A stretch of DNA of 64,000 nt, from assembly GCA_017656345.1 (NCBI GenBank), contig JACDNZ010000010.1, forward strand, positions 19,848-83,847, given 5' to 3'. A model generated the notes under the pieces. It ran no database searches, was not told the origin of the DNA, and was given only the letters and a program-made list of their open reading frames with translations. Shown piece after piece: positions 2,117 to 31,048 of this stretch. The translations under genes were made by a program, and so were the position numbers. The stretch is from Thermosipho sp. (in: thermotogales) (lineage in GTDB: Bacteria; Thermotogota; Thermotogae; Thermotogales; Fervidobacteriaceae). Within the stretch, counting starts at the first letter, position 1, and each line of letters starts with the position of its first letter.

Positions 2117-2527
2117 ATGAATAAACTAGTATATGATGAAGAAGCTATAGTATATGTCACTAAAGAATTTACTTTTGATTCAGCCCATTATTTAGATGAG
2201 TATTATGGATTATGTTCTAACTTACACGGACACACATATCGTTTACAAGTTACTGTTAGAGGTATATTAAATGATATTGGAATGGTAATAGATTTTAAAG
2301 AACTAAAAAGTGTAGTTAAAGAAAAGGTAATAGATAAATTAGACCATAAATATATTAATAATACATTACCTTTTAATCCTACAGCCGAAAATTTAGTTGT
2401 TTGGATTTATGATGTTTTAAGAGAAGAATTAGAAAAAAGAAAAATAGTTTTGGATAGCATTAAGTTATGGGAAACTCCAACAAGTTTTGCAGAATACAGA
2501 GGTGATAGACTTGCTTTATATAGATGA
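2117..2527 (+). CDS. queD: 6-carboxytetrahydropterin synthase (QueD)
   Basis: FTFDSAHYL...LHGHTYRLQVTV...GMVIDFKELK...LDHKYIN...PTAENLV. Confidence 0.93.
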   Translation: MNKLVYDEEAIVYVTKEFTFDSAHYLDEYYGLCSNLHGHTYRLQVTVRGILNDIGMVIDFKELKSVVKEKVIDKLDHKYINNTLPFNPTAENLVVWIYDVLREELEKRKIVLDSIKLWETPTSFAEYRGDRLALYR

Positions 2528-3149
2528 AATATTTGTTAGCGTACAAGGTGAAGGAACAAGTATAGGATTACCTACTGTGTTTATAAGATTACACGGCTGT
2601 AATTCGAATTGTATCTATTGTGACACTAATCAAAAAGATAGAAAAAGAAGAAAAATGTCAGTAGATAATATTTTAGAAGCTGTTTTCAGAACTGGAATAA
2701 CTAATGTATGCATTACTGGTGGTGAACCTTTATTGCAAGAAGAAGTTTATTGTTTAATATATGACTTAGTTGGAAGAGGTTATAGTGTGAGTATTGAAAC
2801 TAATGGAAGTATACCAATAAGTGAAGATTTATATAAAAGGTCTTATAAGTATGTAATGGATATAAAATGCCCTTCTAGTTTAATGCACCATAAAAATAAA
2901 TATGCTAATTTAGAAATATTACAGGCACATGATGAAGTAAAATTTGTTATAGCTGATAAAGAGGATTATAAATTTGCTAAAAGTATTTTAAAGAAATATC
3001 CTACTAAAGCACAAATTTTATTTAGTCCCTTATTTAATAAAGATAATAAACAGTATATAGGTAAAGAATTATGTAATTGGATAATTAAAGACAGATTAAA
3101 TAATGCTAGAGTATTACTACAAATGCACAAAATTTTAGGTGTAAGTTAG
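2511..3149 (+). CDS. queE: 7-carboxy-7-deazaguanine synthase (QueE), radical SAM
   Basis: FVSVQGEGTSIGLPTVFIRLHGCNSNCIYCDT (CX3CX2C), TGGEPLLQ. TTG at 2511 has SD agaggtgat; upstream ATG 2487 less likely. Confidence 0.9.
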   Translation: MLYIDEIFVSVQGEGTSIGLPTVFIRLHGCNSNCIYCDTNQKDRKRRKMSVDNILEAVFRTGITNVCITGGEPLLQEEVYCLIYDLVGRGYSVSIETNGSIPISEDLYKRSYKYVMDIKCPSSLMHHKNKYANLEILQAHDEVKFVIADKEDYKFAKSILKKYPTKAQILFSPLFNKDNKQYIGKELCNWIIKDRLNNARVLLQMHKILGVS

Positions 3150-3159
3150 GAGTGATATT

Positions 3160-3696
3160 ATGAAAAAACAAGAATGGGATATAATAAAACAACTACCAGT
3201 TAAAATAGTAAAAGCACTACCTAAAGAAGCAGTAAGAAAAGAGGTAATAGAAAATCTTTCAGAAATATTTAAAGAAACTTATAAAGAGTTAAGAGAAGTA
3301 AATAAAAAAGAGATAGGTAAATTGTCTAGAAAAGTATTTAGTTATAGAAATAGACCTAAAGTATTCGCTATTGACTATGATGGTACTTTAAACAGAGCAG
3401 GGTTTAGAGGCGGAAAACACGAATTAGACCCAGAAATAGTTGAATTTATAATGTTAGCCAAGAAATATGGGCATAAAATAGTTATATGGACTTGCAGAAG
3501 TGACAAGTATTTAAAAGAAGCTTTAAATGTTTTAGATAGAAATAATATACCTTATGATTATGTAAATGAGTTTCCAGAGTGTGATTTTGGAAGTCCTAAA
3601 ATAGTCGCAGATAGGTATATAGATGATTTAAACCTATCAATTAAAGAAGTAAAGGAGATTGTGAGATATGAAAGAGAAAGTAATAGTACTAAATAG
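3160..3696 (+). CDS. HAD-superfamily phosphatase/hydrolase
   Basis: FAIDYDGTLNRAG...IWTCRSDKYLKEAL...VADRYIDDLN. Confidence 0.75.
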   Translation: MKKQEWDIIKQLPVKIVKALPKEAVRKEVIENLSEIFKETYKELREVNKKEIGKLSRKVFSYRNRPKVFAIDYDGTLNRAGFRGGKHELDPEIVEFIMLAKKYGHKIVIWTCRSDKYLKEALNVLDRNNIPYDYVNEFPECDFGSPKIVADRYIDDLNLSIKEVKEIVRYERESNSTK

Positions 3697-5347
3697 TGGT
3701 GGATTTGATAGTGTAGTTTTAATAAAATGGTTAGCACAACAAAAGTATGATATTGTTTCTATTTTCTTTGATTATGAACAAAGAAATGTAAAACAAGAAA
3801 GAGAAAAGGCTAGAAAAGTCGCTAAAGAGGTAAAAGCAGAACACATTGAAATAAAACTCCCAAAATTTGAATGGAGTAATAATAGTTTATATGATAAATC
3901 TTTAGGAATTGATATAAAAAATCAATATATTCATATGAGAAATTTAATATTTTTATCCTATGCAATATCTGTGGCTGAAAGTAAAAAAATTAATAAAATA
4001 TATAGTGCAATAATAAATGCTAGAGAAAATACCTATAGTGATACAAGTATAAAATTTATAAATGCTTTTAATGATTTTGTAAATAAATTTGGTATAGAGT
4101 TTAAAACTCCTTTTAGTGAGCTATCTAAAGTACATTTAGGTTATATAGCTAGAGTGTTAGATATTAAAAAGAACGACTTTTTTAGTTGTAATACTCCTAA
4201 AGATAATGGAGAGCCTTGTGGTAAATGTGGAGATTGTAAATCATTAGATTATATTGTTACTAATATATTAGAGGATAGTATACCTATTCACACTTATTTT
4301 AGAGCGAATTTAAATCCAGATGAAAAGTTTAAAAAATTATTTAGAAATAGTAAGATAAAGGAGTTAAGATTATTAAATACAGACAAATGTCAATTTAATT
4401 GTAAGCATTGTTTTTATGGATTTGATAAAATGAAAGGAAATCAATTAACAATAGAAGAATATAAAAATATTATAGACCAAGCTAACGAATTAGGCATAGA
4501 AAATATACATTTTTCTGGCAGAGAGCCTTTATGTGATGAAAATATATTTGAGATAATGGCTTATATAAAACAGAATTATAGCGATATGACATATGATTTA
4601 GTAACTAATGGAGTCTATATAGAAAGGTATATTGATAGATTAAAAGAGCTTGAAGTAAATAAAATATTTGTTAGTATAGATAACCTAAAAGATTTAAAAA
4701 TAAGACCAACAATAAAAGGGGTAATTGACGCTATAGATTTAATTCAAAATAAAGAAATTCCTTTAGAAGTATTTATTGATATTCATAAAGGTAATAAAAA
4801 TCAAATAAAAGATATTATATATAAATTATATAAAGAGTATAATGTAAGAAATTTTCACGTAAGACCTATTTCACCTTTAGGTAGAGGAAAAAATATAATT
4901 AATGAAATAATAGACGCTAAAGAATTAGATGAGGTGTTTAAGGACTTAATAAATTTAAATTTAGATAATGTAATAATAGAATTTGCAATAAAAAATGTAT
5001 GGACTAAAAAATTATTAGAAAGAAATTATACTTTATCAAATTATTTATATGACCTTATAGATACTACTAATAATATAGTAGGTAATATAGTACTTTTACC
5101 AGAATTTTATTGTAGCAGATTTGAGAGTCAAATAACCTTAACCCCAGATGGTTACATTTTAGGTTGTGCTACAGAAATTAGTTCTATTCATTATGATAAA
5201 ATATCTGTAGGGAATATAAGAGAATTACCTTTAAAAAAGTTAATAAAATTAGGTAAAGAACAGTCTTTGAAGATGATAGATAAGCAACATAAAAATAAAA
5301 ACTATAACGGTAGTTGTTACCATACTTTTTATAAATTGAAAAATTAA
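3668..5347 (+). CDS. QueC-like preQ0 synthase domain fused to a radical-SAM domain with SPASM/twitch-like C-terminal cysteines
   Basis: N-term VLNSGGFDSVVLIKWL (PP-loop) and CNTPKDNGEPCGKCGDC (QueC zinc motif); C-half DKCQFNCKHCFYGF (CX3CX2C), then CSRFESQITLTPDGYILGC...C. Confidence 0.85.
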   Translation: MKEKVIVLNSGGFDSVVLIKWLAQQKYDIVSIFFDYEQRNVKQEREKARKVAKEVKAEHIEIKLPKFEWSNNSLYDKSLGIDIKNQYIHMRNLIFLSYAISVAESKKINKIYSAIINARENTYSDTSIKFINAFNDFVNKFGIEFKTPFSELSKVHLGYIARVLDIKKNDFFSCNTPKDNGEPCGKCGDCKSLDYIVTNILEDSIPIHTYFRANLNPDEKFKKLFRNSKIKELRLLNTDKCQFNCKHCFYGFDKMKGNQLTIEEYKNIIDQANELGIENIHFSGREPLCDENIFEIMAYIKQNYSDMTYDLVTNGVYIERYIDRLKELEVNKIFVSIDNLKDLKIRPTIKGVIDAIDLIQNKEIPLEVFIDIHKGNKNQIKDIIYKLYKEYNVRNFHVRPISPLGRGKNIINEIIDAKELDEVFKDLINLNLDNVIIEFAIKNVWTKKLLERNYTLSNYLYDLIDTTNNIVGNIVLLPEFYCSRFESQITLTPDGYILGCATEISSIHYDKISVGNIRELPLKKLIKLGKEQSLKMIDKQHKNKNYNGSCYHTFYKLKN

Positions 5348-5370
5348 CGTTTGAAGGGTTGTAAAATTTG

Positions 5371-5480
5371 CCTTTTAGTAGTATCCTTAAAGTAGGGTTG
5401 ATAGTAGCCAGAAGTTTTTTTCCTAGTGTTCACTATCTGGTGTATACTAGTTCCTATCAACCTAAAACTACTAGGAGGTG
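5371..5480 (+). promoter_or_regulatory. candidate structured leader RNA that can sequester the SD of the 5486 gene
   Basis: Nested pairings: CCTTTTAGTAGT (5371-5382) with ACTACTAGGAGG (5467-5478, contains SD; two G-U pairs); GGTTGATAG (5396-5404) with CTATCAACC (5454-5462); CCAGA (5408-5412) with TCTGG (5436-5440). Confidence 0.5.
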
Positions 5481-5485
5481 AAATC

Positions 5486-5653
5486 ATGTTTATAAAAGTT
5501 TTTGCAGAAGGTGAAGGTAGTAGAGCTTCTAGAATTGACAGAGCTATGAGAAACTCTGGAAATAGGACAGCTTTGAGAGCCTACAATGAAGCTATCCGAA
5601 GATTAAGAGAAGGTAGAGTAGCTTACCAACCACCAGGACGCCCTAGAGGATAA
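5486..5653 (+). CDS. 55-aa basic protein with N-terminal FIKVFAEGEG motif
   Basis: ATG 5486 preceded by aggaggtg; sequence MFIKVFAEGEGSRASRIDRAMRNSGNRTALRAYNEAIRRLREGRVAYQPPGRPRG. Confidence 0.75.
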   Translation: MFIKVFAEGEGSRASRIDRAMRNSGNRTALRAYNEAIRRLREGRVAYQPPGRPRG

Positions 5654-5709
5654 TCTTTAATTTAGATTAGCCCCTCCCCCTTTCGTGATAAATATATGGG
5701 TCGGAACAA

Positions 5710-5752
5710 GATAGACTACTAGTAAAACTTGCTAGTAGTCTATCTTTTTTAT
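5710..5752 (+). terminator. Rho-independent terminator
   Basis: gatagactactag ... ctagtagtctatc followed by TTTTTT. Confidence 0.85.
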
Positions 5753-5792
5753 ATAATAAAAGTAGATAATACAACATATAAGGAGGTATAGC

Positions 5793-6380
5793 ATGACTGA
5801 TAACAAAATAGAAAGAATTAAAAATCATTTAGAAGAAATAATGGATATATTAGAGTTAGAGAAAAACGATAGTACTAAAGACACCCCATTTAGAGTTGCT
5901 AAGATGTGGGTAAATGAGATATTTAAGAATAGGAATAATAAAAATATTGAAGAATTAAATGCACAAATGAAATTATTTAAAAATAATTTCTGTAATGATG
6001 AATTAATTATAGTAAAAGATATTGAATTTAGCTCATTTTGTGAACACCATTGGCTACCATTTACAGGCAAGATTTCTGTAGGTTATGTACCTACAGATAA
6101 AATAATAGGTTTATCTAAAATTCCTAGAGTGGTGAAATTCTTTAGTCAAAAACCTCAATTACAAGAAAGATTAGTCCATGAGATAGGGGAATATTTAGCA
6201 GGTATTATAAATCCACAAGTTTTATTTGTATCTGCTAAAGCTATACATGATTGTGTAATGTGCAGAGGTGCTGAAAGTAATTCTATAACTGAAACTTCTT
6301 ATGTTTATATGAACTCATATATACCTATTGAAGCAGTTACAGCGTATAAAAAAGAGTTTATTTTAAAGACTACTAAATAG
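5793..6380 (+). CDS. folE: GTP cyclohydrolase I (FolE)
   Basis: DTPFRVAKMWVNEIF, FSSFCEHHWLPFTGKISVGYVPTDKIIGLSKIPR, AIHDCVMCRG. Confidence 0.93.
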   Translation: MTDNKIERIKNHLEEIMDILELEKNDSTKDTPFRVAKMWVNEIFKNRNNKNIEELNAQMKLFKNNFCNDELIIVKDIEFSSFCEHHWLPFTGKISVGYVPTDKIIGLSKIPRVVKFFSQKPQLQERLVHEIGEYLAGIINPQVLFVSAKAIHDCVMCRGAESNSITETSYVYMNSYIPIEAVTAYKKEFILKTTK

Positions 6381-6392
6381 AGGTGATTGTAA

Positions 6393-6959
6393 ATGCGAAT
6401 TTTATTAGCAGTAGGTAGTCCAAGAAAATATGGTAATACATTTAAATTAGCAGAAGAATTTAAGAAACAAGCCGAAATTAAAGGTCATATAGTAGATTTT
6501 TTAGCTTTAGATGATTATACTATAAAACCATGTAATCATTGTGGTTTTTGTATAGAAAAGAGAGAATGTAAACATTTTGATGAGTTAAGAGAGGTATTAA
6601 TAAATTTTGAAGAGAAATATAACGGAATTATTATTGCAAGTCCTATTTATTTTTTCTACCTTACAGCCCAAACTAAATTATTTTTAGATAGATTATATTC
6701 TGTTAATTTAAGTCATAAATTTATTGGTGCTATTTTAGTATCTGGTAGTGAGTTTTTTGAAGGAGGAAATGATTTAGTTATAGATTCATTAAAAAGAGTA
6801 TGTAATTATTGTAATAGTATATTTGTCGGAGTAGTACAAAAAACTACTTATGATGATGTATTAGATTTATCAGAAAATGATAAATCTAATATAGAGAAAC
6901 TAATTTTATCTATAGAAAATAATAATAATATTAATTCCTCTATATTTATTGATTATTAA
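6393..6959 (+). CDS. NADPH-dependent FMN reductase / iron-sulfur flavoprotein-like
   Basis: AVGSPRKYGNTFKLAEEFKKQ, CNHCGFCIEKREC, GIIIASPIYFFYLTAQTKLFLDR. Confidence 0.8.
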   Translation: MRILLAVGSPRKYGNTFKLAEEFKKQAEIKGHIVDFLALDDYTIKPCNHCGFCIEKRECKHFDELREVLINFEEKYNGIIIASPIYFFYLTAQTKLFLDRLYSVNLSHKFIGAILVSGSEFFEGGNDLVIDSLKRVCNYCNSIFVGVVQKTTYDDVLDLSENDKSNIEKLILSIENNNNINSSIFIDY

Positions 6960-9022: not shown

Positions 9023-9066
9023 TTGAAAATCAATGCTTGACAAGCCCCCTTTAAGTGTTATATAAT
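9023..9066 (+). promoter_or_regulatory. sigma-A-like promoter with upstream TTGAAAATCAA box
   Basis: TTGAAAATCAA 9023-9033, TTGACA 9037-9042, TATAAT 9061-9066 (18-bp spacer). Confidence 0.75.
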
Positions 9067-9112
9067 TAAGCTGTGAACAACGATAAATAAACACTTAAAG
9101 GGGGATTTTTAT

Positions 9113-9451
9113 ATGCTATATACTACTTATGATTTCATTTCATTAGAGAAAATGACAGAAAGCCAAGTAAGACAGGAAATTGAGTTAGCCAAGCAAAAGT
9201 ATGAAGAAGTACAGGAATACTTTAAAATGCTTGAAGAAATGACTCCTAATGAGTTTCTAAAACCAGATTTAGAAATACACATTACTACACTAAAAAATAT
9301 AGAGAGTTATATAAGAAAAGCAGAAAATTTACTAAATGAATGGGATAGTAATTCATACATAAGAAAAGCTAGAAAGAGGTTCAAAACCTTTAATTATAAT
9401 AATATAAATAATAAATATATAAATAAAATAAAAATAATAAAAATTAAATAA
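9113..9451 (+). CDS. hypothetical protein
   Basis: 112-aa ORF with SD aaaggggga. Confidence 0.65.
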   Translation: MLYTTYDFISLEKMTESQVRQEIELAKQKYEEVQEYFKMLEEMTPNEFLKPDLEIHITTLKNIESYIRKAENLLNEWDSNSYIRKARKRFKTFNYNNINNKYINKIKIIKIK

Positions 9452-9472: not shown

Positions 9473-9829
9473 ATGTCATTCAAAAAAGTTAAGAGAGGTG
9501 AAGTTTATTTAGCTAGAGTTGGTAACAAATATGTCGGTAGTGAGCAGAAAGGTACAAGACCAGTTTTAATTATCCAGAATAATATAGGTAATAGATTTAG
9601 CCCAACTGTCATAGTAGCTTTTATAACTTCTAAACTACATAAGAAGAAACTACCGACCCATTGTTTGGTTAATTTAAAAGTACCTTCTATAGTTTTAACT
9701 GAACAACTAAGAACGATTGATAAAACTCGTTTAGTTGAAAGAATGGGTAGATTAACAGAAGAAGAAATGCAAAAGGTTGAAAAGTGTTTAAGAATAAGTT
9801 TAGATTTAGGGGGCGATGGAGGTGACTAA
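9473..9829 (+). CDS. MazF/PemK-family endoribonuclease toxin-like protein
   Basis: KRGEVYLARVG...GSEQKGTRPVLIIQNNIGNRFSPTVIVAFITSK...PSIVLTEQLRTIDKTRLVERMGRL. Confidence 0.88.
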   Translation: MSFKKVKRGEVYLARVGNKYVGSEQKGTRPVLIIQNNIGNRFSPTVIVAFITSKLHKKKLPTHCLVNLKVPSIVLTEQLRTIDKTRLVERMGRLTEEEMQKVEKCLRISLDLGGDGGD

Positions 9830-11159
9830 GACTGAAAGAGATAAAATGTTTGAAGAGAATATGGGTTTAGCTAAAAGTATTGTTTTCAAAGAGTTTAAAA
9901 ATTTTGCACACACAAGTGGTATGACTTTAGAAGATGTATTACAAGTTGCTTATATAGGGTTACTGAAAGCAGTAGATAAGTTTGACGCTAGTAGAGGTTT
10001 AGCTTTTAGTACATTCGCAGTACCTACTATTCGTGGCGAAATTTTGCGTTATATGAGAGATTATAGCCCTAATCAAATAAAAATAAGTAGGAGTATTAAA
10101 ATGTTATATACTAAATATAATAAACTAAAAGATGAAGGTAAAACAGATGAAGAAATAATGAAAGAATTAGAGGTATCTAGAGAAGAATTAGAGAATATAA
10201 AGGTGTCAAAACTTGAGCCTGTGTATTTAGATGATACTGTAAATAACAATAAAATAAAAGATGATAATAAAGATATTTATAGAATTGATAGGTTAACTAA
10301 TGAATATGATTTAGCTGAAAGTACTGTAAATCTAATAGACTTGAGAGAAAAATTAGCATTACTTAGAGATGAAGTTGGTTATAGGAATTTTGAAATATTA
10401 ATGTTAGAAAGATTTGAAGAAATGAACCAAGAAAAAATTGCAAACATGGTTGGTGTTACTCAAGTACAAGTAAGCAGAATAGTAAAAAGAATACAAAATA
10501 AATTCATTCCTTTAGTTGAGCAAAAATATAATAATGGTAAAAGAAGTAAAAACTATAAGGGGGAAAATCTAATGAGTGTAAAAGAAAGACATAAACAACA
10601 AATTGAAGTGTTAATTAATTGGTGCTTAAATAATAAAGGTAAGAAATTAACTAAAATAAGAGAAATTTTAGAAAAGCATAATTTAGATGTAATACCTGGA
10701 TATGAAACTGTATTAAAAAGATATGTACTAGAAGAATTAAATAATAGAGGTGTAGTAATAACTAAAGTTCCGAGAAATGATAGAGGTATAAACTTTTGGG
10801 TATCTACAGATGAAGAATTGAAAAAATATACTCCAGTAAATAATGTAATAGACTTAACTAATGAAGAAGTAATACCTGTGGTTGAAGAGCATAAACAGAA
10901 TACCGAAGATGAAAGTCCTACTTCAACTAAAACAAATAGAGAGGTTTTAAAAGAAACTGTTAATAGAATGGACATAGATAGATTGAAGAAACTTGAGGAA
11001 ATAAAATCAGCTAATAAAATAGTAATATTTAATTATTGTAATAGCCTAACACGTGATACTATATCACCTATTATTGATACTATGAAAAGCATTTTAGAAA
11101 TATCAGAGTTACAGGATAGTTCTTTAGAAGCTAATATTGTTTTAACAATAGAAAAATAA
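9816..11159 (+). CDS. RNA polymerase sigma factor (sigma-70 family, sporulation/stress type) with ~200-aa C-terminal extension
   Basis: LEDVLQVAYIGLLKAVDKFDASRGLAFSTFAVPTIRGEILRYMRDY; region 4-like NFEILMLERFEEMNQEKIANMVGVTQVQVSRIVKRI. Confidence 0.88.
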   Translation: MEVTKTERDKMFEENMGLAKSIVFKEFKNFAHTSGMTLEDVLQVAYIGLLKAVDKFDASRGLAFSTFAVPTIRGEILRYMRDYSPNQIKISRSIKMLYTKYNKLKDEGKTDEEIMKELEVSREELENIKVSKLEPVYLDDTVNNNKIKDDNKDIYRIDRLTNEYDLAESTVNLIDLREKLALLRDEVGYRNFEILMLERFEEMNQEKIANMVGVTQVQVSRIVKRIQNKFIPLVEQKYNNGKRSKNYKGENLMSVKERHKQQIEVLINWCLNNKGKKLTKIREILEKHNLDVIPGYETVLKRYVLEELNNRGVVITKVPRNDRGINFWVSTDEELKKYTPVNNVIDLTNEEVIPVVEEHKQNTEDESPTSTKTNREVLKETVNRMDIDRLKKLEEIKSANKIVIFNYCNSLTRDTISPIIDTMKSILEISELQDSSLEANIVLTIEK

Positions 11160-11732: not shown

Positions 11733-12101
11733 ATGTATTATCAAATAAAACATTTTATTAATGAGAATCAAGAGAAAATAAATAATTTTTTAAAAGATAT
11801 AGGTGATAGAGTAGTAGATATAAAAATATCCAGTAGTGCTACTAACGATGAATGGAGTACAGATATTATAGTAGTATATAAAGAAGGTAATACAAATACA
11901 GAAACAGATATAAAGAGTAAGCTTATTAAATACCTATCAAATCTTACAAGTTTTACAGATAAGGATATTATTGAATATTTTTGCCCTAGTGATTTTGATT
12001 TAGAAGATATTGAATATCTTTGTATGAAACCAGCTACAGAAGAAAGGAATACAGATAAACATTGTTTAGAGTGTTGGAGAAAAGCACTAGAGAAATATTA
12101 A
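11733..12101 (+). CDS. hypothetical protein
   Basis: ORF with SD aggaggt. Confidence 0.65.
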   Translation: MYYQIKHFINENQEKINNFLKDIGDRVVDIKISSSATNDEWSTDIIVVYKEGNTNTETDIKSKLIKYLSNLTSFTDKDIIEYFCPSDFDLEDIEYLCMKPATEERNTDKHCLECWRKALEKY

Positions 12102-13399: not shown

Positions 13400-13727
13400 A
13401 GAATATATATAATAAGATATATAAATATATACAATAATAACTAAAATATATAATAGAGTAATAAATATAGTAGAGGTTATTTAGTTACTAAATATATAAT
13501 TACTTTTTTTTAGTCATTTTATATAGTAAAATTGGATTTTATTAGGTAAACCTATAACTTTTTCATTTCCGAACGCTATTTTTATACCTATCATTTTATA
13601 TATTTTATATTGAAATTATATACCTAAACCTCTCTAAACCTCTTATGATTCTACCCACTCACATAGTGGTATAAAATTTTTAGGTAGGTATGGTTAAGGT
13701 ACACTTCCACCCACACTACATTTTAGA

Positions 13728-14237
13728 GGTACTTAGAAAGTCCTTCGTAGGCTCTTTCTACCACCTTTTTAAGAGTGGTATAACAATGGAAAGGTACTGA
13801 GAAAGACCTAATGATGGACTTTCTACCACCTTTTTAAAAATTGGTGAAAGTACCTCAAAGAGCCTGTAGAGGACTTTCAGCCACCTTTTAGTAGTAGTGA
13901 AAAGGTACTAGAAAGACCCAATGAAGGACTTTCTAGTACCTTAATTATTATTTAGAGGTACTACTATGTACTTATTATATATAGTGTTTATTATATATAA
14001 GGTCTATTATATATTACTATTATATATACATATAGCACTATGGTTACCTCTAAAAAGTACCAGAAAGTCCTTCACAAGGTCTTTCTCACCACCTTTTTGA
14101 TAGTGGTTATGTAGTGAATTAGTATATAAGTCTATTATATATAGTACTTATTATATATAACTAAGGTACTATTTCAGCCACCTTTTAAAAGGTACTAGAA
14201 AGAGCCTGTGAAGGTCTTTCTCCTACTCTTTAGAAGT
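13728..14237. repeat. array of about six palindromic hairpin repeats
   Basis: Units near 13728, 13793, 13849, 13903, 14056, 14191: GGTACT.GAAAG..CCT..AGG.CTTTCT.CCACCTTTTT. Confidence 0.7.
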
Positions 14238-14471
14238 GACCTCATATTTTGGCTTTTAAGGTGGTTGTTTTTGGTTAGGTAATATAATAAGTCTATGGAG
14301 AAAAAATAAGTACCTTAAAATCGAAAATAAAGCGTGGTTTTATGAACCGTTGAGTACCAATCTATGGAGTTTGACTTTTAAGTACAAAAAATGTATAATA
14401 AGTATGTAAATTGTCCATACTAATTCTGAAAGTTACAATATTAAGTATAAATAGAGAAGGAGAGTGTTAGT

Positions 14472-14945
14472 ATGAAAAATGTATTCTATTTAATCAATGT
14501 GAGTGAAGATTGGTGGCAGTTAAGAGAAAAGAAGTATCATTCAGTAATAAGTACCTCAAATTCTTTAGAGGGTATACTAGCAAGACTAAAGAAGGTAGTA
14601 ATTAAATACAAAACTAAAGAGAGATTCTACAGAAGATTAGAAAGGACTGAAACAGTAAAACCGAATTTAGTGGTATCTAAAAAGAGAGAATTAGAGTACA
14701 AACAAATAGGTGATAAGTTTAATGATTTAGTAGAGGAAGTAGTAAGTGAAGCACTAGCTACAATAAAAGAGGAAAGTAATTTAGTGAGGAAAAATAAAAA
14801 GTCAGTATCTAAAATGAAGAACATATTAAAGGGTAAAATTGAGGTTGAAAAAGTACCAGTAAAAGATGGGGTGAAGAGAGAGGAAAGAAAGTTAGTATCT
14901 ATTAAAAGAAAGATAAAACCAGTTACAAAAAAGTTAACCATTTAG
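14472..14945 (+). CDS. basic hypothetical protein
   Basis: 157-aa ORF with leader GGAGAGTGTTAGT and downstream terminator. Confidence 0.65.
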   Translation: MKNVFYLINVSEDWWQLREKKYHSVISTSNSLEGILARLKKVVIKYKTKERFYRRLERTETVKPNLVVSKKRELEYKQIGDKFNDLVEEVVSEALATIKEESNLVRKNKKSVSKMKNILKGKIEVEKVPVKDGVKREERKLVSIKRKIKPVTKKLTI

Positions 14946-14961
14946 TCAGTACTATATAAGC

Positions 14962-14992
14962 GACTCACTTATAAAGAAGTGAGTCCTTTTTT
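14962..14992 (+). terminator. Rho-independent terminator
   Basis: gactcactt-ataaag-aagtgagtc then CTTTTTT. Confidence 0.85.
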
Positions 14993-16030
14993 ATGCACTT
15001 ATAGCACCAGATAAAGTGCTACTAGTACCAGAAGTATATAATGCACCTTTAGAAGTTCATAATGTACCTTTAGAAGCCTTTATAAGTGCCTTCAAGTCCT
15101 AAGTATCACCTAACCAGCTTATAACCTCTTAGAAGCCTTTTTAAGCCTTCTTTTAGTCCTTAGTATACCTATAGCACCTTTAACCACTTTTAAGCCTGTT
15201 ATAAGTCAAATAAGAGTCTACCAGCTTATAGAGTCCCAAGCGTTCATTATCAATGTATCATGTAAAAAAGAGAGAATGAGAGAGAATGACAAAGCTATTT
15301 AAAGCTAATCGCTTCTAATCGTCTATAATCGCCCATAATGCTAGTTGTAAAAGTGCTATATACCGTCTATACTATACTTGTAAGACAACAGAAGAGCATT
15401 GACACAGTTCGACATTTAAGCATTGACAGCTTAGTTACAACCAAAGATAAACAACCAACGACACCAAAGACAAAGACCTTTTAAATTGTACCTTGACAAG
15501 AGCATATAAACAGTTAGACGAACAGCCTAAAGAGTGCTAGAAGCTACTTTAAGAGCCTAAGCATAAATGTAGCACCTCTTTAGTTGCTTAGTCCTCTTAT
15601 AGCACTAGAAGCTATAAGACTCTATAAAACAGTTAGTGACTAAAGAGAATCATTCCAGACATAAAGCAGTATATACATAAGTAGTTTCTAGAGTCGAACC
15701 ACTTGACGCACCAGAATAAAAGACTTTATACACCAGATACCTAATACTAGATGTAGCTTACTACTTTAGTGACTTAGTACACTGGGTAACCAACAGAAGT
15801 CTGATGTATTCCAGACTTGCTGGGTTGAAAAGAGTCAAGTCTGCCCGAGGGCAATAGCCTGTAGTACAAGTAGTTTAACTGTTTATATGTGACTATATAG
15901 AGTTGGGCAACCTCCACTCACACTCTCCATAGTGTGAATAGTCAGTTATTGACTATTCCCTTTAGTGCTAATATTCTTTATTAGCATTAAGGGGAGTAGT
16001 TAATACTACTCTGAAAAAAATATAAAAATA
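14993..16030 (+). ncRNA. candidate long structured noncoding RNA region (type and exact bounds unknown)
   Basis: About 1 kb with no convincing ORF; direct repeats, consecutive hairpins (e.g. GAATAGTCA/TGACTATTC; CCCTTTAGTGCTAATA/TATTAGCATTAAGGG at ~15936-16005) and an 18-nt anti-SD sequence. Confidence 0.35.
15306..15340. repeat. 10-bp-period direct repeat, TAATCG-type, about 4 copies
   Basis: TAATCGCTTC TAATCGTCTA TAATCGCCCA TAATGCTAGT. Confidence 0.6.
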
Positions 16031-16048
16031 CAAAGGAGAGTGTGTATT

Positions 16049-16804
16049 ATGAAAAAACTAGCAAACATGAGTAAGAAGGAGTTAATAGCTAAGTTAAAGG
16101 AGGTTAGCTCTAGAGTTACAGACAAGAACCTAAAAGATATGGTAGCATACACATTAAAGAAGATAGAAGAGAGTACAAGAAATGTAACAAAGGACGATTT
16201 AGTAACCTTATTAAGTGACCTATTAACTAATGAGCCACTACCAATAGAGAATAACGCTAAGAAAGAAGAACCTAAGAAAGCAAAGATTAAAGCAAAGAAA
16301 GAAGCAAAGAAAGCCGAAAAAGAAGAACCTAAGAAAGACACTAAGAAAGCAGAAAAAGACGCTAAAAAAGACGTTAAAAAGTCCAAGAAAGAAGTTAAGA
16401 AAGAAGTTAAAAAGATATTTCCAGAAGAATTAGGAATAAAAGATACTAACTTCAAGTTAGATTTAGATATAGAAAGTATAAAACAGCTTAAAAAGTTAGT
16501 TGAAGAAGATAACAAAGAAATTATATTTGCCTTCTATTGGACTAAACGTCACTTGAAGCAATATTATAATAGCTATGATATAAGAGGAATCACAGCTAAA
16601 GAAAAAGTAAAAGAATTTCCTAATGATTTGGACTTGTGTATGCCATTATACATTAGTGAAGATAATAAAGTAATATATGTAATTTCCATATATACAGAAG
16701 TAATTTATCAAATAATACCAGAAGAATTAAAAGTATTTAAAGATGAAACTGAGAGTTTAAGGTTCTGTAACTCTATAGAGTATAACCTTTATATAGCTGA
16801 ATAA
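16049..16804 (+). CDS. Lys/Ala-rich basic hypothetical protein
   Basis: ATG 16049 with SD GGAGAG (ORF track start 16040 is an in-frame GTG inside the leader); low-complexity KKAEKDAKKDVKKSKKEVKKEVKK. Confidence 0.7.
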   Translation: MKKLANMSKKELIAKLKEVSSRVTDKNLKDMVAYTLKKIEESTRNVTKDDLVTLLSDLLTNEPLPIENNAKKEEPKKAKIKAKKEAKKAEKEEPKKDTKKAEKDAKKDVKKSKKEVKKEVKKIFPEELGIKDTNFKLDLDIESIKQLKKLVEEDNKEIIFAFYWTKRHLKQYYNSYDIRGITAKEKVKEFPNDLDLCMPLYISEDNKVIYVISIYTEVIYQIIPEELKVFKDETESLRFCNSIEYNLYIAE

Positions 16805-16908
16805 CTCCAAGCTTTAGTATTGATTGTGAGGGCATTACTCTTCGAGTAGTGCCTTCCAATGAGTACTAAAGCTAGTACTCAAATAATAAGATGAGTGGAG
16901 GAATGAGT

Positions 16909-17355
16909 ATGACAAATATTCAATTACTTAAATTAAAAGTGGTTAAAGAGAAAGGTGCAAGATATGATGTACCTAAAAAAGTTACCTGCCCAGATGATAT
17001 AAAAAAGATAGCTATTGAAGTATTAGAGTTAGACGAACAAGCAGAAGAGGTACTAGCACTTGTCACTTTAGATACTAAACTAAAAGTTACAGGAGTATTT
17101 GAAGTAAGTAGAGGTAGTATAAACTCTTCAATAGTACACCCAAGAGAAATATTTAAGAGAGCTATGCTGGTAAATGCTAGTAGTATAGCTATCTTACATA
17201 ATCACCCAAGTGGTGACCCAAAACCAAGTAAAGAAGATAATAAAATAACTAGAAGATTACAAGAAGCAGGTAACTTATTGGGGATTGAACTAATAGACCA
17301 TGTAATAATTGGAGATGATAGCTACTTTAGTTACAAAGAACATGGAATTATATAA
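16909..17355 (+). CDS. radC: RadC/JAB-domain protein
   Basis: AILHNHPSGDPKPSKEDNKITRRLQEAGNLLGIELIDHVIIGDDSYFSYKEHG; SD GTGGAGG. Confidence 0.9.
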   Translation: MTNIQLLKLKVVKEKGARYDVPKKVTCPDDIKKIAIEVLELDEQAEEVLALVTLDTKLKVTGVFEVSRGSINSSIVHPREIFKRAMLVNASSIAILHNHPSGDPKPSKEDNKITRRLQEAGNLLGIELIDHVIIGDDSYFSYKEHGII

Positions 17356-17454
17356 GTATTGCTAGAGTACATTAACATTTTAGTTAGTGTACTCTATGGA
17401 GTACTTATATAATAAGTATTCCTCCACTAAAAATAAAAGAGGAGAGTGTGTTAT

Positions 17455-17703
17455 ATGAAATTAGAAACATTACAGAATATATTAGCTAAAACTCCAGTTT
17501 TGGTGAAAAGAATGGTGCAAGAAAAGCATGATGTAGATGTAGTAGTATTAGAAGTGATAGTATTAAAGTACTGGGAACAAAATGGGATAAATATACACCA
17601 TAAAAATGCATCTAAACTATATGAAGAAGCTGGAGATATAGTAGCTAAGGTATTAGCAGAAGAAATATTACTTTTTAGTGCTGACTTAGAGGACATTAAC
17701 TAA
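17455..17703 (+). CDS. hypothetical protein
   Basis: ORF with leader GGAGAGTGTG and ATG at 17455. Confidence 0.65.
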   Translation: MKLETLQNILAKTPVLVKRMVQEKHDVDVVVLEVIVLKYWEQNGINIHHKNASKLYEEAGDIVAKVLAEEILLFSADLEDIN

Positions 17704-17766
17704 AGGTTAGTGTCCTTTAGTGAGTACTAAAGGGTACTCAAATAATAAAAGAGTGGAGGGAATAAT

Positions 17767-18084
17767 ATGACAACTTATGATTTAGTAAAAGAATTTGTAT
17801 ACGGAGGAACTCATGGAAGTGCTAGTGGTAACAGATTACGAATTGAAGGGGATAAACTAATAAATTATAGTACAGTTATAGCATATAGATATAAAAGGAA
17901 TATAATATTAAATAATACTAAGTACAGCCCGACCACTTCCAAGCACCAAAACAGAGTAAGGGCTTTAACACCAGTTCTAGAATGTGATGAAGATACTCTA
18001 TACAAACTAATAAACGCCAGAAGTGAAAAAGAAAGGGAAGAAGTATTTGCAGAAATAATAAGAATGAACGCAGATTTAGACTAA
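17767..18084 (+). CDS. hypothetical phage protein
   Basis: ORF with leader GAGTGGAGG. Confidence 0.7.
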   Translation: MTTYDLVKEFVYGGTHGSASGNRLRIEGDKLINYSTVIAYRYKRNIILNNTKYSPTTSKHQNRVRALTPVLECDEDTLYKLINARSEKEREEVFAEIIRMNADLD

Positions 18085-18188
18085 ATACTCTTAGAGTCCA
18101 TTATCTCCAAGAAGAGATAGTGGGCTTTATAGAGTATTTAGTTTAATACTCTAATATATAAATAAAAATAAAAGGAGAGTGTGGAGAA

Positions 18189-18497
18189 ATGAATTATAAT
18201 TATTTTTATTTTAATAGTATGTATTATAAAAGAGATGGTTTTAAATATTTAAAAGGAAAAGATTTCTTTAGTTTTAAAGAAATATCTAAAGAAGAGTACG
18301 ATTCTGCTTATGAAAAATGGAAGCAAGAACAAGATTGGTGTATAGTAAAAGATTTTGCCACAGGGGAATATTTTTTAGTAACTAGAGAAGAGAGCGACAG
18401 AATGGAAAGAAGTCATAGTGATTATATAAGAATATCTACTATAGGAAGTTATGATGAAATAGTAAAAGAATATGATAAGTTAATAGAAGAGGAATAG
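18189..18497 (+). CDS. hypothetical protein
   Basis: ORF with leader GGAGAGTGTGGAG. Confidence 0.65.
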   Translation: MNYNYFYFNSMYYKRDGFKYLKGKDFFSFKEISKEEYDSAYEKWKQEQDWCIVKDFATGEYFLVTREESDRMERSHSDYIRISTIGSYDEIVKEYDKLIEEE

Positions 18498-19836: not shown

Positions 19837-19971
19837 ATGATTATAAGAAAAGCTTATAACTCTTTAGGTCAATATTATAAAGATTTACACGATATGCAGT
19901 CTAAAGGATATAGATTAAAAAATATTGATGTTATGTTAAAAAATTTGATAATAGTTAGATATTTTAAATAA
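19837..19971 (+). CDS. small hypothetical protein (44 aa)
   Basis: MIIRKAYNSLGQYYKDLHDMQSKGYRLKNIDVMLKNLIIVRYFK; SD taggaggt. Confidence 0.5.
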   Translation: MIIRKAYNSLGQYYKDLHDMQSKGYRLKNIDVMLKNLIIVRYFK

Positions 19972-27928: not shown

Positions 27929-30900
27929 ATGCACAACTTTAATCAAAATGCAGTAAAGATTTTAGAAGATAGATACCTATTAAAAGACGGTGATGGAAGT
28001 ATTATTGAAACTCCAGAAGATATGTTAGAAAGAGTTGCAACTGTAGTAAGTAAAGGTGATGAAAAATTAAAAGAAGAGTTTTTAGAAATAATGAGGGAGT
28101 TAAAATTCTTACCGAATAGTCCAACTTTAATGAACGCTGGTGCTAAGTTAGGTCAACTTTCAGCTTGTTTTGTTGTACCAGTAGAAGATAGTATGCATAG
28201 TATTTATAAAGCTATACACGACCAAGCAATTATTCAAAAGACAGGTGGAGGAACAGGATTTAATTTCTCTAAATTATCAGAGAAAGACGCATTTTTAACA
28301 ACAAGTCAAGGTAGAGCAAGTGGACCTATAAGTTTTATGAAAGTGTTTAATGAGTCTAGTAGAACTGTAGAACAAGGTGGAAAACGTAGAGGGGCTAATA
28401 TGGGAATTTTAGAAGCCGACCATTTTGATATTTTTGATTTTATAGAAGCAAAAAATGTTAAGTATTGTGATGTTTGTAATACAAAAATGGGAAGAAATCA
28501 ATTTGAATGTCCTAATTGTGGGAGATATATTCCAGAAGATACAACATTAAACTATTTTAACTTATCAGTAGGTATAAATGACGAATTTATACAAAAAGCT
28601 ATAAATTTAGTTGAAAAAGGGATTGATAGTGATTGGGTTTTAAGAAGTAGACGTGACCCTAATAAAATTAAAGTAGTTAAGTTTAGTGATTTATGGAAGA
28701 AGATTGTTTTTTATGCTTGGTATAGTGGAGAGCCTGGATTAATAAATTTAAGTGAGATAAATAGACATAACCCTATACCTACAGAGCCGATAGACGCTAC
28801 TAATCCATGTGTTGTAGGAGATACTTTAGTCCAAACAGTAGAAGGAGAAATACCAATAAAAGATTTAGTTGGTAAAGAAATTGATGTATATTGTATGAAT
28901 GAAAAAGGTGAGTTAACAATATCTAGGGCATATAATATTAGAAAAACTAGAGAAAATGCAGAGTTAGTTAAAGTTGTTACAACTAGAGGTGAAATTATTT
29001 GTACTCCAGACCATAAATTTTATACTAAAAATAGAGGTTGGGTAGAAGCTAAAGATTTAAACCCTAAAGATAAAATTGTAGGTTTGAATAGAAAAATGAA
29101 AAACGAGAAATATTGTGCTGTAGGATTGACAGGTACAGAATATATATCAGAGCATAGATTTATTATGAGCCATTATGAGGATATTGAAGGTAAAGACGTT
29201 CATCATATAGATGGCAATACATTAAATAATGTAAAATCTAATTTAGAAGTAATAGAACATGGTAAACATTCAGTATTGTCAAATAAAGGGCATATTGATT
29301 GGAGTATTAGAAATGAAAAAGGTCAATTTGTACGAAAGCCTGTAAAAAAAGAGAAGGATAAACTTACATTGAATAGACCTATAGGGGCTAATTTAAGAGT
29401 TAAAGAAGTTATTTATTTAGATTATAAAGAGGACGTTTATGATTTAACTGTAGAAAATTATCATAATTTTATAGCTAACGGTGTTGTTATTCACAACTGT
29501 GGTGAACAACCTCTAAGACCTTACGAAAGTTGTAATTTAGGAAGTATTAATTTAGATAGATTAACTGACATGGAAGGTAATTTAGATTTTAAAGAATTAG
29601 AAAGAGTAACAAGATTAGCAGTAGACTTTTTGGATAATGTAATAGATGTAAATAAATATCCTCTAAAAGAAATTGAAGAAAGTACTAAGCAAACAAGAAA
29701 TATAGGTTTGGGTGTAATGGGATTAGCTAGAATGTTACAGAAGATGGAGATACCTTATGATAGCCCAGAAGGTAGAGCTAAAGTAAAGGAAGTTTTAGAA
29801 ATAATACAATATTTTGCTGATGACCAAAGTATGTATAGAGCAAGAAAATATGGTAATTTCCCACTATATGAAAAAAGTGTTTATGCAGAACAAGGAATAC
29901 CAATGAGAAACGCTACAAGAACTACAGTAGCACCTACAGGAAGTATAGGAACATTAGCTAATACAAGTGGTGGTATTGAGCCAGATTTTACACATAGATT
30001 TACTAGAATAGTTAATCAAGGAGATGAAGAAAAAGAATTTAAAATAGTAGTAGAAAACCCAGTTTTAGTTGCTAAATTAAAGAAATACAACTTATATTCA
30101 GAGGAATTAATGAAAGAGATTGAAGAAAATGGAGGAATGTTACCAGAGAACCCTAAAGCTTTAGTAGGTTATCCAGCTAGTGTATATGATTTATATAAAC
30201 ATCTTAGAGAAGTATTTAAAACTGCAAATGAAATAAGTGTTGAAGGTCATATTGATATGTTGATAGCAGTTCAATCAGTTATAAATAATGCAGTATCTAA
30301 AACTATAAATCTACCTAATGAAGCAACTGTAAAAGAAGTAGAGGAAGCTTTTATTAGAATGATAAAAGGTGGTGCTAAAGGGGTTACTGTTTACAGATAT
30401 GGAAGTAGAAAGTTCCAACCTTTAGTTACTAATAAAAAACAAGAAGAGAAGAAAGAAGAGAAAAAAGCTACCTCTAAGAAAGAAGGTTATATTGAGCCAC
30501 CTAGAGATAATTTACCTTCTATAAAAAGAAGATTATATACAGGCTGTGGTAAGTTGTACTTACATGCAGATTATGACCCAGAAACAGGCGATATAAAAGA
30601 AGTATTTATAGATAAAGGTAGTGAAGGTGGTTGTAAGATATTCACTAAAGCAACAAGTAGATTGTTAAGTGTTGCAATACGTGGAGGAATACCTTTAGAT
30701 ATTTTAGTAGAGCAATTAAATTCTGCTGGTAGCTGTCCTTCATATCAATACGCTAGAGGTAAAGGAAAGAAAGTAAGTCCCGGAATGAGTTGCCCTTCTG
30801 CAATAGGTAAAGAATTAGTAAGATTACAGAAAGAGTTACATGAGAAATTTAGTGATTATACAGTAAAGGAAGTAAAAGAGAATGAGTCTATAACGATAGA

Positions 30901-31048
30901 CCCTACTAAAACTTCTAAAGTTATATTAAAGGTGAAAGAAGAAAAAGAAGTAGAAGATGAAACAATGAAGTGTCCAGAATGTGGTGCTAAATTATTACCT
31001 ATAAGTGGTTGTGTTACTTGCCCAGAGTGTGGTTACAGTAAATGTTAA
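27929..31048 (+). CDS. nrdJ: adenosylcobalamin-dependent (class II) ribonucleotide reductase containing an intein
   Basis: [79 protein letters not shown]-terminal Cys cluster. Confidence 0.92.
28808..29497 (+). mobile_element. intein (230 aa) with HNH-like homing endonuclease
   Basis: Starts [20 protein letters not shown], block [12 protein letters not shown]-like [20 protein letters not shown], ends [14 protein letters not shown] followed by Cys (+1). Confidence 0.93.

Follow-up and report, generated by a model that had tools for sequence, protein, structure and literature searches.

Upstream of gene 16049 of a phage contig, within a 1.1-kb non-coding stretch, lies an 18-nt segment, CCTCCACTCACACTCTCC, that is the exact complement of two types of SD leader found in front of neighbouring genes. 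The initial annotation proposed that this segment belongs to a regulatory RNA able to pair with six start regions. Does the segment serve such a trans-acting RNA, or does it act within the transcript on which it lies?

The window analysed, 64,000 nt in length, corresponds to positions 19848–83847 of the 83,847-bp contig C10, which, given its 55-nt terminal overlap, very probably represents an entire circular phage genome (~83.8 kb). Its structural module resembles that of myoviruses (sheath, major capsid protein, terminase); among named phages, Streptomyces phages provide the best relatives of the capsid and sheath, at 33–49% amino-acid identity. A complete reverse gyrase is encoded in the remainder of the assembly, so the putative host of C10 is presumably thermophilic. 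The assembly searched contains no 16S rRNA gene, hence the host anti-SD is not readable from it. ORFs of at least 100 aa number 84 on the plus strand versus 8 on the minus strand; a simple gene-calling script, applied after this count to the plus strand only, gave 119 genes and their starts.

Positions 2117–6959 of the window hold genes for a QueD-family (PTPS) protein, a radical-SAM (QueE-like) protein, QueC, GTP cyclohydrolase I and FMN reductase, a 7-deazaguanine (preQ0) pathway with a possible role in phage DNA modification; QueC is here fused to a radical SAM domain. A phage-encoded sigma-70-family factor (9816–11159; regions 2 and 4) could recognise phage-specific promoters. In the ribonucleotide reductase gene (27929–31048), an intein splicing domain was recognised, along with a weak match to HNH. 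Outside the window (L025 12000–14661), the DNA polymerase A gene ends with a stop at 13883; behind it comes a LAGLIDADG endonuclease ORF (PF03161), probably an intervening element, for which Rfam returned no match. At 13718–14240 of the window, at least five copies of the imperfect dyad AGAAAGNCCTTC...GGNCTTTCT lie next to AT-rich inverted repeats within a ~1.2-kb stretch nearly without genes; this array could mark an origin or a partition site. The ~900 bp at 14990–15890 lack clear genes, and compared with the genes on either side their GC content is higher and their GC skew lower or reversed; they are not clearly coding and do not correspond to a known RNA.

Two leader classes are defined by GGAGAGTGT (class A, four genes) and GAGTGGAGG (class B, two genes), which have GAGTG in common. 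They precede six consecutive genes, 14472 to 18189, and no other gene among the 119 called carries either leader; most of the others have an AGGAGGT-type SD. Across the whole 2.12-Mb assembly, GGAGAGTGTG occurs five times, always on the phage contig, as three leaders and two complements. The coordinates of the 18-mer and its exact complementarity to both leader types were confirmed, as were the positions of all six leaders, but the leader at 14459 reads GGAGAGTGTT and matches the segment over 9 nt, not 10 (Table 1).

Table 1. Features of the anti-leader segment, the six leaders and the predicted folds of the gene 16049 leader (window coordinates).
Feature	Position	Strand	Remarks
Anti-leader segment CCTCCACTCACACTCTCC	15911–15928	+	18 nt, complements both leader classes
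CCTCCACTC, class-B leader complement (16893, 17751)	15911–15919	+	no pairing in predicted leader fold
Putative anti-SD arm CACACTCTCC, 5′ strand of predicted P1	15919–15928	+	predicted to pair with 16035–16044
Second anti-class-B segment ATTCCTCCACT	17418–17428	+	precedes gene 17455
Class-A leader (GGAGAGTGT), gene 14472–14945	14459–14467	+	
Class-A SD leader GGAGAGTGTG, gene 16049	16035–16044	+	3′ strand of predicted P1
Class-A leader, gene 17455–17703	17441–17450	+	
Class-A leader, gene 18189–18497	18174–18183	+	
Class-B leader, RadC-like gene 16909–17355	16893–16901	+	
Class-B leader, gene 17767–18084	17751–17759	+	
Hairpin 1 inside P1, GAATAGTCA-gttat-TGACTATTC	15936–15958	+	predicted closed state
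Hairpin 2 inside P1	15959–15993	+	15 bp
Hairpin 3 inside P1	15994–16011	+	7 bp
TGACTAT	15890–15896	+	pairs with 15938–15944 in predicted open state
Alternative local hairpin TCACACT/AGTGTGA	15918–15937	+	predicted open state, SD freed
Imperfect 27-bp hairpin	15947–16005	+	predicted open state
Gene 16049, orphan Lys-rich protein	16049–16804	+	251 aa, downstream of leader

The complementarity between segment and leaders is not due to chance. When the interval 15905–15935 was paired with all 119 start regions at 65 °C, the six leaders ranked 1–6 by duplex energy, a ranking that none of 1,235 composition shuffles reproduced, in a post hoc test for which the six genes had been chosen by their leader motif. 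The rank sum was 21, against 57 in the comparison with 664 intergenic windows, and no independent window came close. The potential to pair with all six start regions, as first proposed, is thus real and specific. It is the specificity of the pairing, rather than its strength, that stands out, since the 37 °C duplex energies of the 15911 site are ordinary for a C/T-rich sequence and do not exceed those of shuffles. Furthermore, CACACTCTCC and CCTCCACTC each averaged 0.0 plus-strand copies per shuffled contig, and CCTCCACT has two plus-strand copies versus 0.11 expected, both inside the cluster.

Folding of the region upstream of gene 16049 predicts a 10-bp helix, P1, that joins the CACACTCTCC half of the segment to the SD of the gene across 106 nt, enclosing three perfect or near-perfect hairpins. 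P1 has a predicted pairing probability of 0.7–1.0 at 37 °C and still of 0.8–0.9 at 80 °C, with energy models extrapolated above 37 °C, and it persists at 65–80 °C and in folded contexts with starts at 15000–15740. The hairpin stack that it closes has a z-score of about −8 to −10, and the upstream folding z-score of gene 16049 (−9.9) is the lowest of 43 phage leaders tested, followed by those of 16909 (−7.7), 17455 (−7.5) and 18189 (−5.5). The SD of gene 16049 is predicted to be paired with a probability of about 0.95–0.97. None of 60 upstream shuffles matched this value; in a second shuffle test 8 of 300 did so at 37 °C and 3 of 300 at 65 °C, and shuffling the anti-SD arm alone gave 3 of 300 and 2 of 300, respectively. 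The length of the complement is in itself a weak argument, because exact 10-nt complements occur within 250 nt upstream of 6 of the 119 genes. SD pairing clearly exceeds shuffles for 16049 and 17455, and not for 16909, 17767 and 18189; the leaders of 16909, 17455 and 18189 are predicted to be strongly structured with paired SDs, on weaker evidence for SD-specific pairing. Elsewhere in the window, at 9045–9113, a 15-nt complement lies ~60 nt upstream of the 9113 leader, which may form another SD-hiding hairpin (predicted SD pairing 1.0).

The CACACTCTCC half is predicted to find its thermodynamically dominant partner in the SD that follows on the same RNA, that of gene 16049 (P about 0.9–1.0); an anti-SD arm within the 16049 leader is therefore the better reading of the site. 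No intrinsic terminator was found between position 15928 and gene 16049, so segment and gene would share one transcript. Promoter-like sites were no commoner than in shuffles, and no good promoter was found for the leader. TATAAATA occurs upstream of 14472 and 18189, among 6 of the 119 genes that have it (hypergeometric p 0.03), and gene 16049 has only TATAAAAATA; an internal promoter, by analogy with T4, is possible. Rfam searches at gathering and permissive thresholds gave no credible family match, and a tRNA/tmRNA search found none. The sequence TTGGGCAACCTCC ahead of 15911, which by eye resembled the 3′ end of a 16S rRNA whose anti-SD had changed, was rejected on the lack of an SSU match in Rfam.

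The leader is also predicted to have a second fold. In the closed state, CACACTCTCC would cover the SD GGAGAGTGTG around the three hairpins and block ribosome loading. In the open state, CACACT would instead pair locally with AGTGTG (15931–15936), TGACTAT at 15890 would pair with ATAGTCA at 15938, replacing the alternative TGACTAT copy at 15950–15956 used in the closed state, and a single 27-bp hairpin would form, leaving the SD free. The local hairpin TCACACT-ctccat-AGTGTGA, noted in the initial annotation, does exist, but it is predicted solely in this fold, and CTCCAT is accordingly looped in the open state alone. The closed state is favoured by −7.9 kcal/mol at 37 °C and by −2.7 kcal/mol at 65 °C (the latter extrapolated), so the two states are close enough for a switch. 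By prediction, a nascent RNA that has not yet reached the SD folds into the open state first; opening might be triggered by an internal promoter, processing, a ligand, a trans RNA or heat. It is proposed, with about an even chance of being right, that 15919–15928 serves as the anti-SD arm in a 5′ leader that acts in cis, has two states and would govern translation of gene 16049. On this cis reading, the segment matches the other class-A leaders because they share GGAGAGTGT. The exact match of CCTCCACTC to the class-B leaders is not accounted for by the cis fold.

Known systems offer partial parallels. In phage T4, the SDs of I-TevI, segB, soc, e and other genes are hidden on early read-through transcripts (PMC2988022). 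As there, the upstream arm of a phage 5′ leader is predicted here to pair with the SD, which would leave long transcripts untranslated, and several of the present genes have an A/T-rich, promoter-like stretch separating arm and SD. The T4 cases differ in having mapped late promoters; the 16049 leader differs in its predicted 10-bp helix over 106 nt, its three hairpins and its alternative open fold. The mutual exclusion of SD-open and SD-closed folds is shared with translational riboswitches and other two-state leaders, but the 16049 leader has no Rfam match and no recognised ligand-binding domain.

A trans-acting anti-leader RNA is the strongest rival explanation, although a rather unlikely one. 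RNAs carrying CACACTCTCC and/or CCTCCACTC would pair with the six SD regions and repress the genes jointly; their sources would be 15911–15928 of the 16049 leader RNA, possibly freed by hairpin cleavage, and the 3′UTR of the phage HU gene. The exclusive 1–6 ranking of the six genes among 119 and the excess of CCTCCACT copies within the cluster both argue for such an RNA. Against it stand the predicted locking of the class-A half in cis, the unexceptional 37 °C duplex energies, the lack of relatives, and the absence of a terminator after 15928 and of a convincing promoter before it. The pairing potential claimed for a regulatory RNA held, but a free-standing sRNA at 15911–15928 is less well supported (no terminator in 15928–16049, promoter-like sites at shuffle level). 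The trans-RNA idea survives in the CCTCCACTC half, which is unpaired in the predicted fold, and in the HU 3′UTR.

The anti-leader in the HU 3′UTR lies outside the window, at C10 positions 11808–11826 (L025), directly behind the stop of an HU-family phage gene (PF00216). It is a 19-nt exact complement of the 16049 leader, including bases up to the start codon, and complements the leaders of 18189, 17455 and 14472 over 15, 12 and 11 nt, respectively. In 300 shuffled contigs, the longest complement reached 15 nt for the six leaders and at most 18 nt for any of the 119. The HU 3′UTR ranks the four class-A genes 1–4, and it is predicted to be unpaired and followed by a 16-bp intrinsic terminator. 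For the four GGAGAGTGT genes only, it is a better candidate trans RNA than 15911–15928. Small RNAs derived from 3′UTRs with an intrinsic terminator are a known kind; the HU 3′UTR resembles them in its predicted unpaired seed followed by a terminator hairpin, but it is phage-encoded, matches one leader perfectly over 19 nt and has its predicted targets in the same phage.

The C-rich SD-targeting sRNAs of Firmicutes include RsaE/RoxS and LhrC. Like them, the 15911 segment is a C/T-rich complement of SD regions in several mRNAs. It differs in having no discrete transcript unit with promoter and terminator, in the predicted cis pairing of its C-rich part, in a complementarity of 9–10 nt to non-canonical leaders and in its presumably thermophilic, not evidently Firmicute host. 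CCTCCACT is unpaired in some predicted folds and CACACTCTCC is paired in cis. The likeness to Firmicute sRNAs with C-rich loops, suggested initially, is doubtful because the assembly carries the reverse gyrase of a thermophile.

Cis and trans pairing may also operate together. The segment at 17418–17428 is complementary over 11 nt to the leader of the RadC-like gene, and its TTCCTC pairs with the gene 17455 SD as well. Judged from sequence, six non-standard SD leaders of two classes and three anti-leader RNAs might form one regulon whose members would be switched together; such an arrangement is considered unlikely. An equally tentative assignment would direct 15911–15928 to both classes, 17418–17428 to class B and the HU 3′UTR to class A.

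The complementarity could alternatively reflect a DNA operator, an improbable explanation in which a phage transcription regulator binds GAGTG motifs in both orientations and the complement is simply an inverted site. GAGTG is present in both leader classes, and non-coding DNA holds inverted copies at 15911, 17418 and contig position 11814; the last of these is followed by a promoter-like site ahead of the DNA polymerase gene. However, every direct copy occupies the SD position before a start codon, which operators need not do, and the 19-nt HU 3′UTR match extends to the start codon. Translational coupling or RNA processing alone, with hairpins that block the SD until opened by a ribosome arriving from upstream or by a nuclease, and with leaders spread by cassette duplication, is more improbable still. 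The anti-SD strands of 16909 and 18189 do start right behind the upstream stops (16805 and 18085), and the two class-B leaders have ~50 nt in common, including a hairpin; yet no translated gene lies within 1.1 kb upstream of gene 16049, and the HU 3′UTR match is left unexplained. A minus-strand ORF of 47 aa does exist at 15774–15917; that GGAGAGTGTGA-GTG should serve as its ribosome-binding site is scarcely credible given the plus-strand coding of the phage, a spacing to GTG of 7 nt, shorter than in class-A genes (9–11), and the lack of relatives.

Searches with terminase, HU, tail sheath, the 16049 protein and DNA found no close relative of this one genome from which covariation could be read. 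The tail sheath search returned only relatives below 50% identity, and no homologue of the 16049 protein was found. Blastn of phages and plasmids and a search for the exact 18-mer in viral contigs gave no close relative, and the leader pattern gave 80 single, unrelated hits in viral contigs. Two short DNA matches in related bacteria were discarded, one being an ordinary-looking gene start and the other an apparent chance match within a bacterial gene.

If real, the cis-acting two-state leader would give the phage a translational switch that has to work in a thermophile, by way of an unusual helix of long range. Should the trans network prove real as well, it would be a compact case of a phage gene cluster coordinated by private SD/anti-SD words, a pairing network amenable to short constructs.
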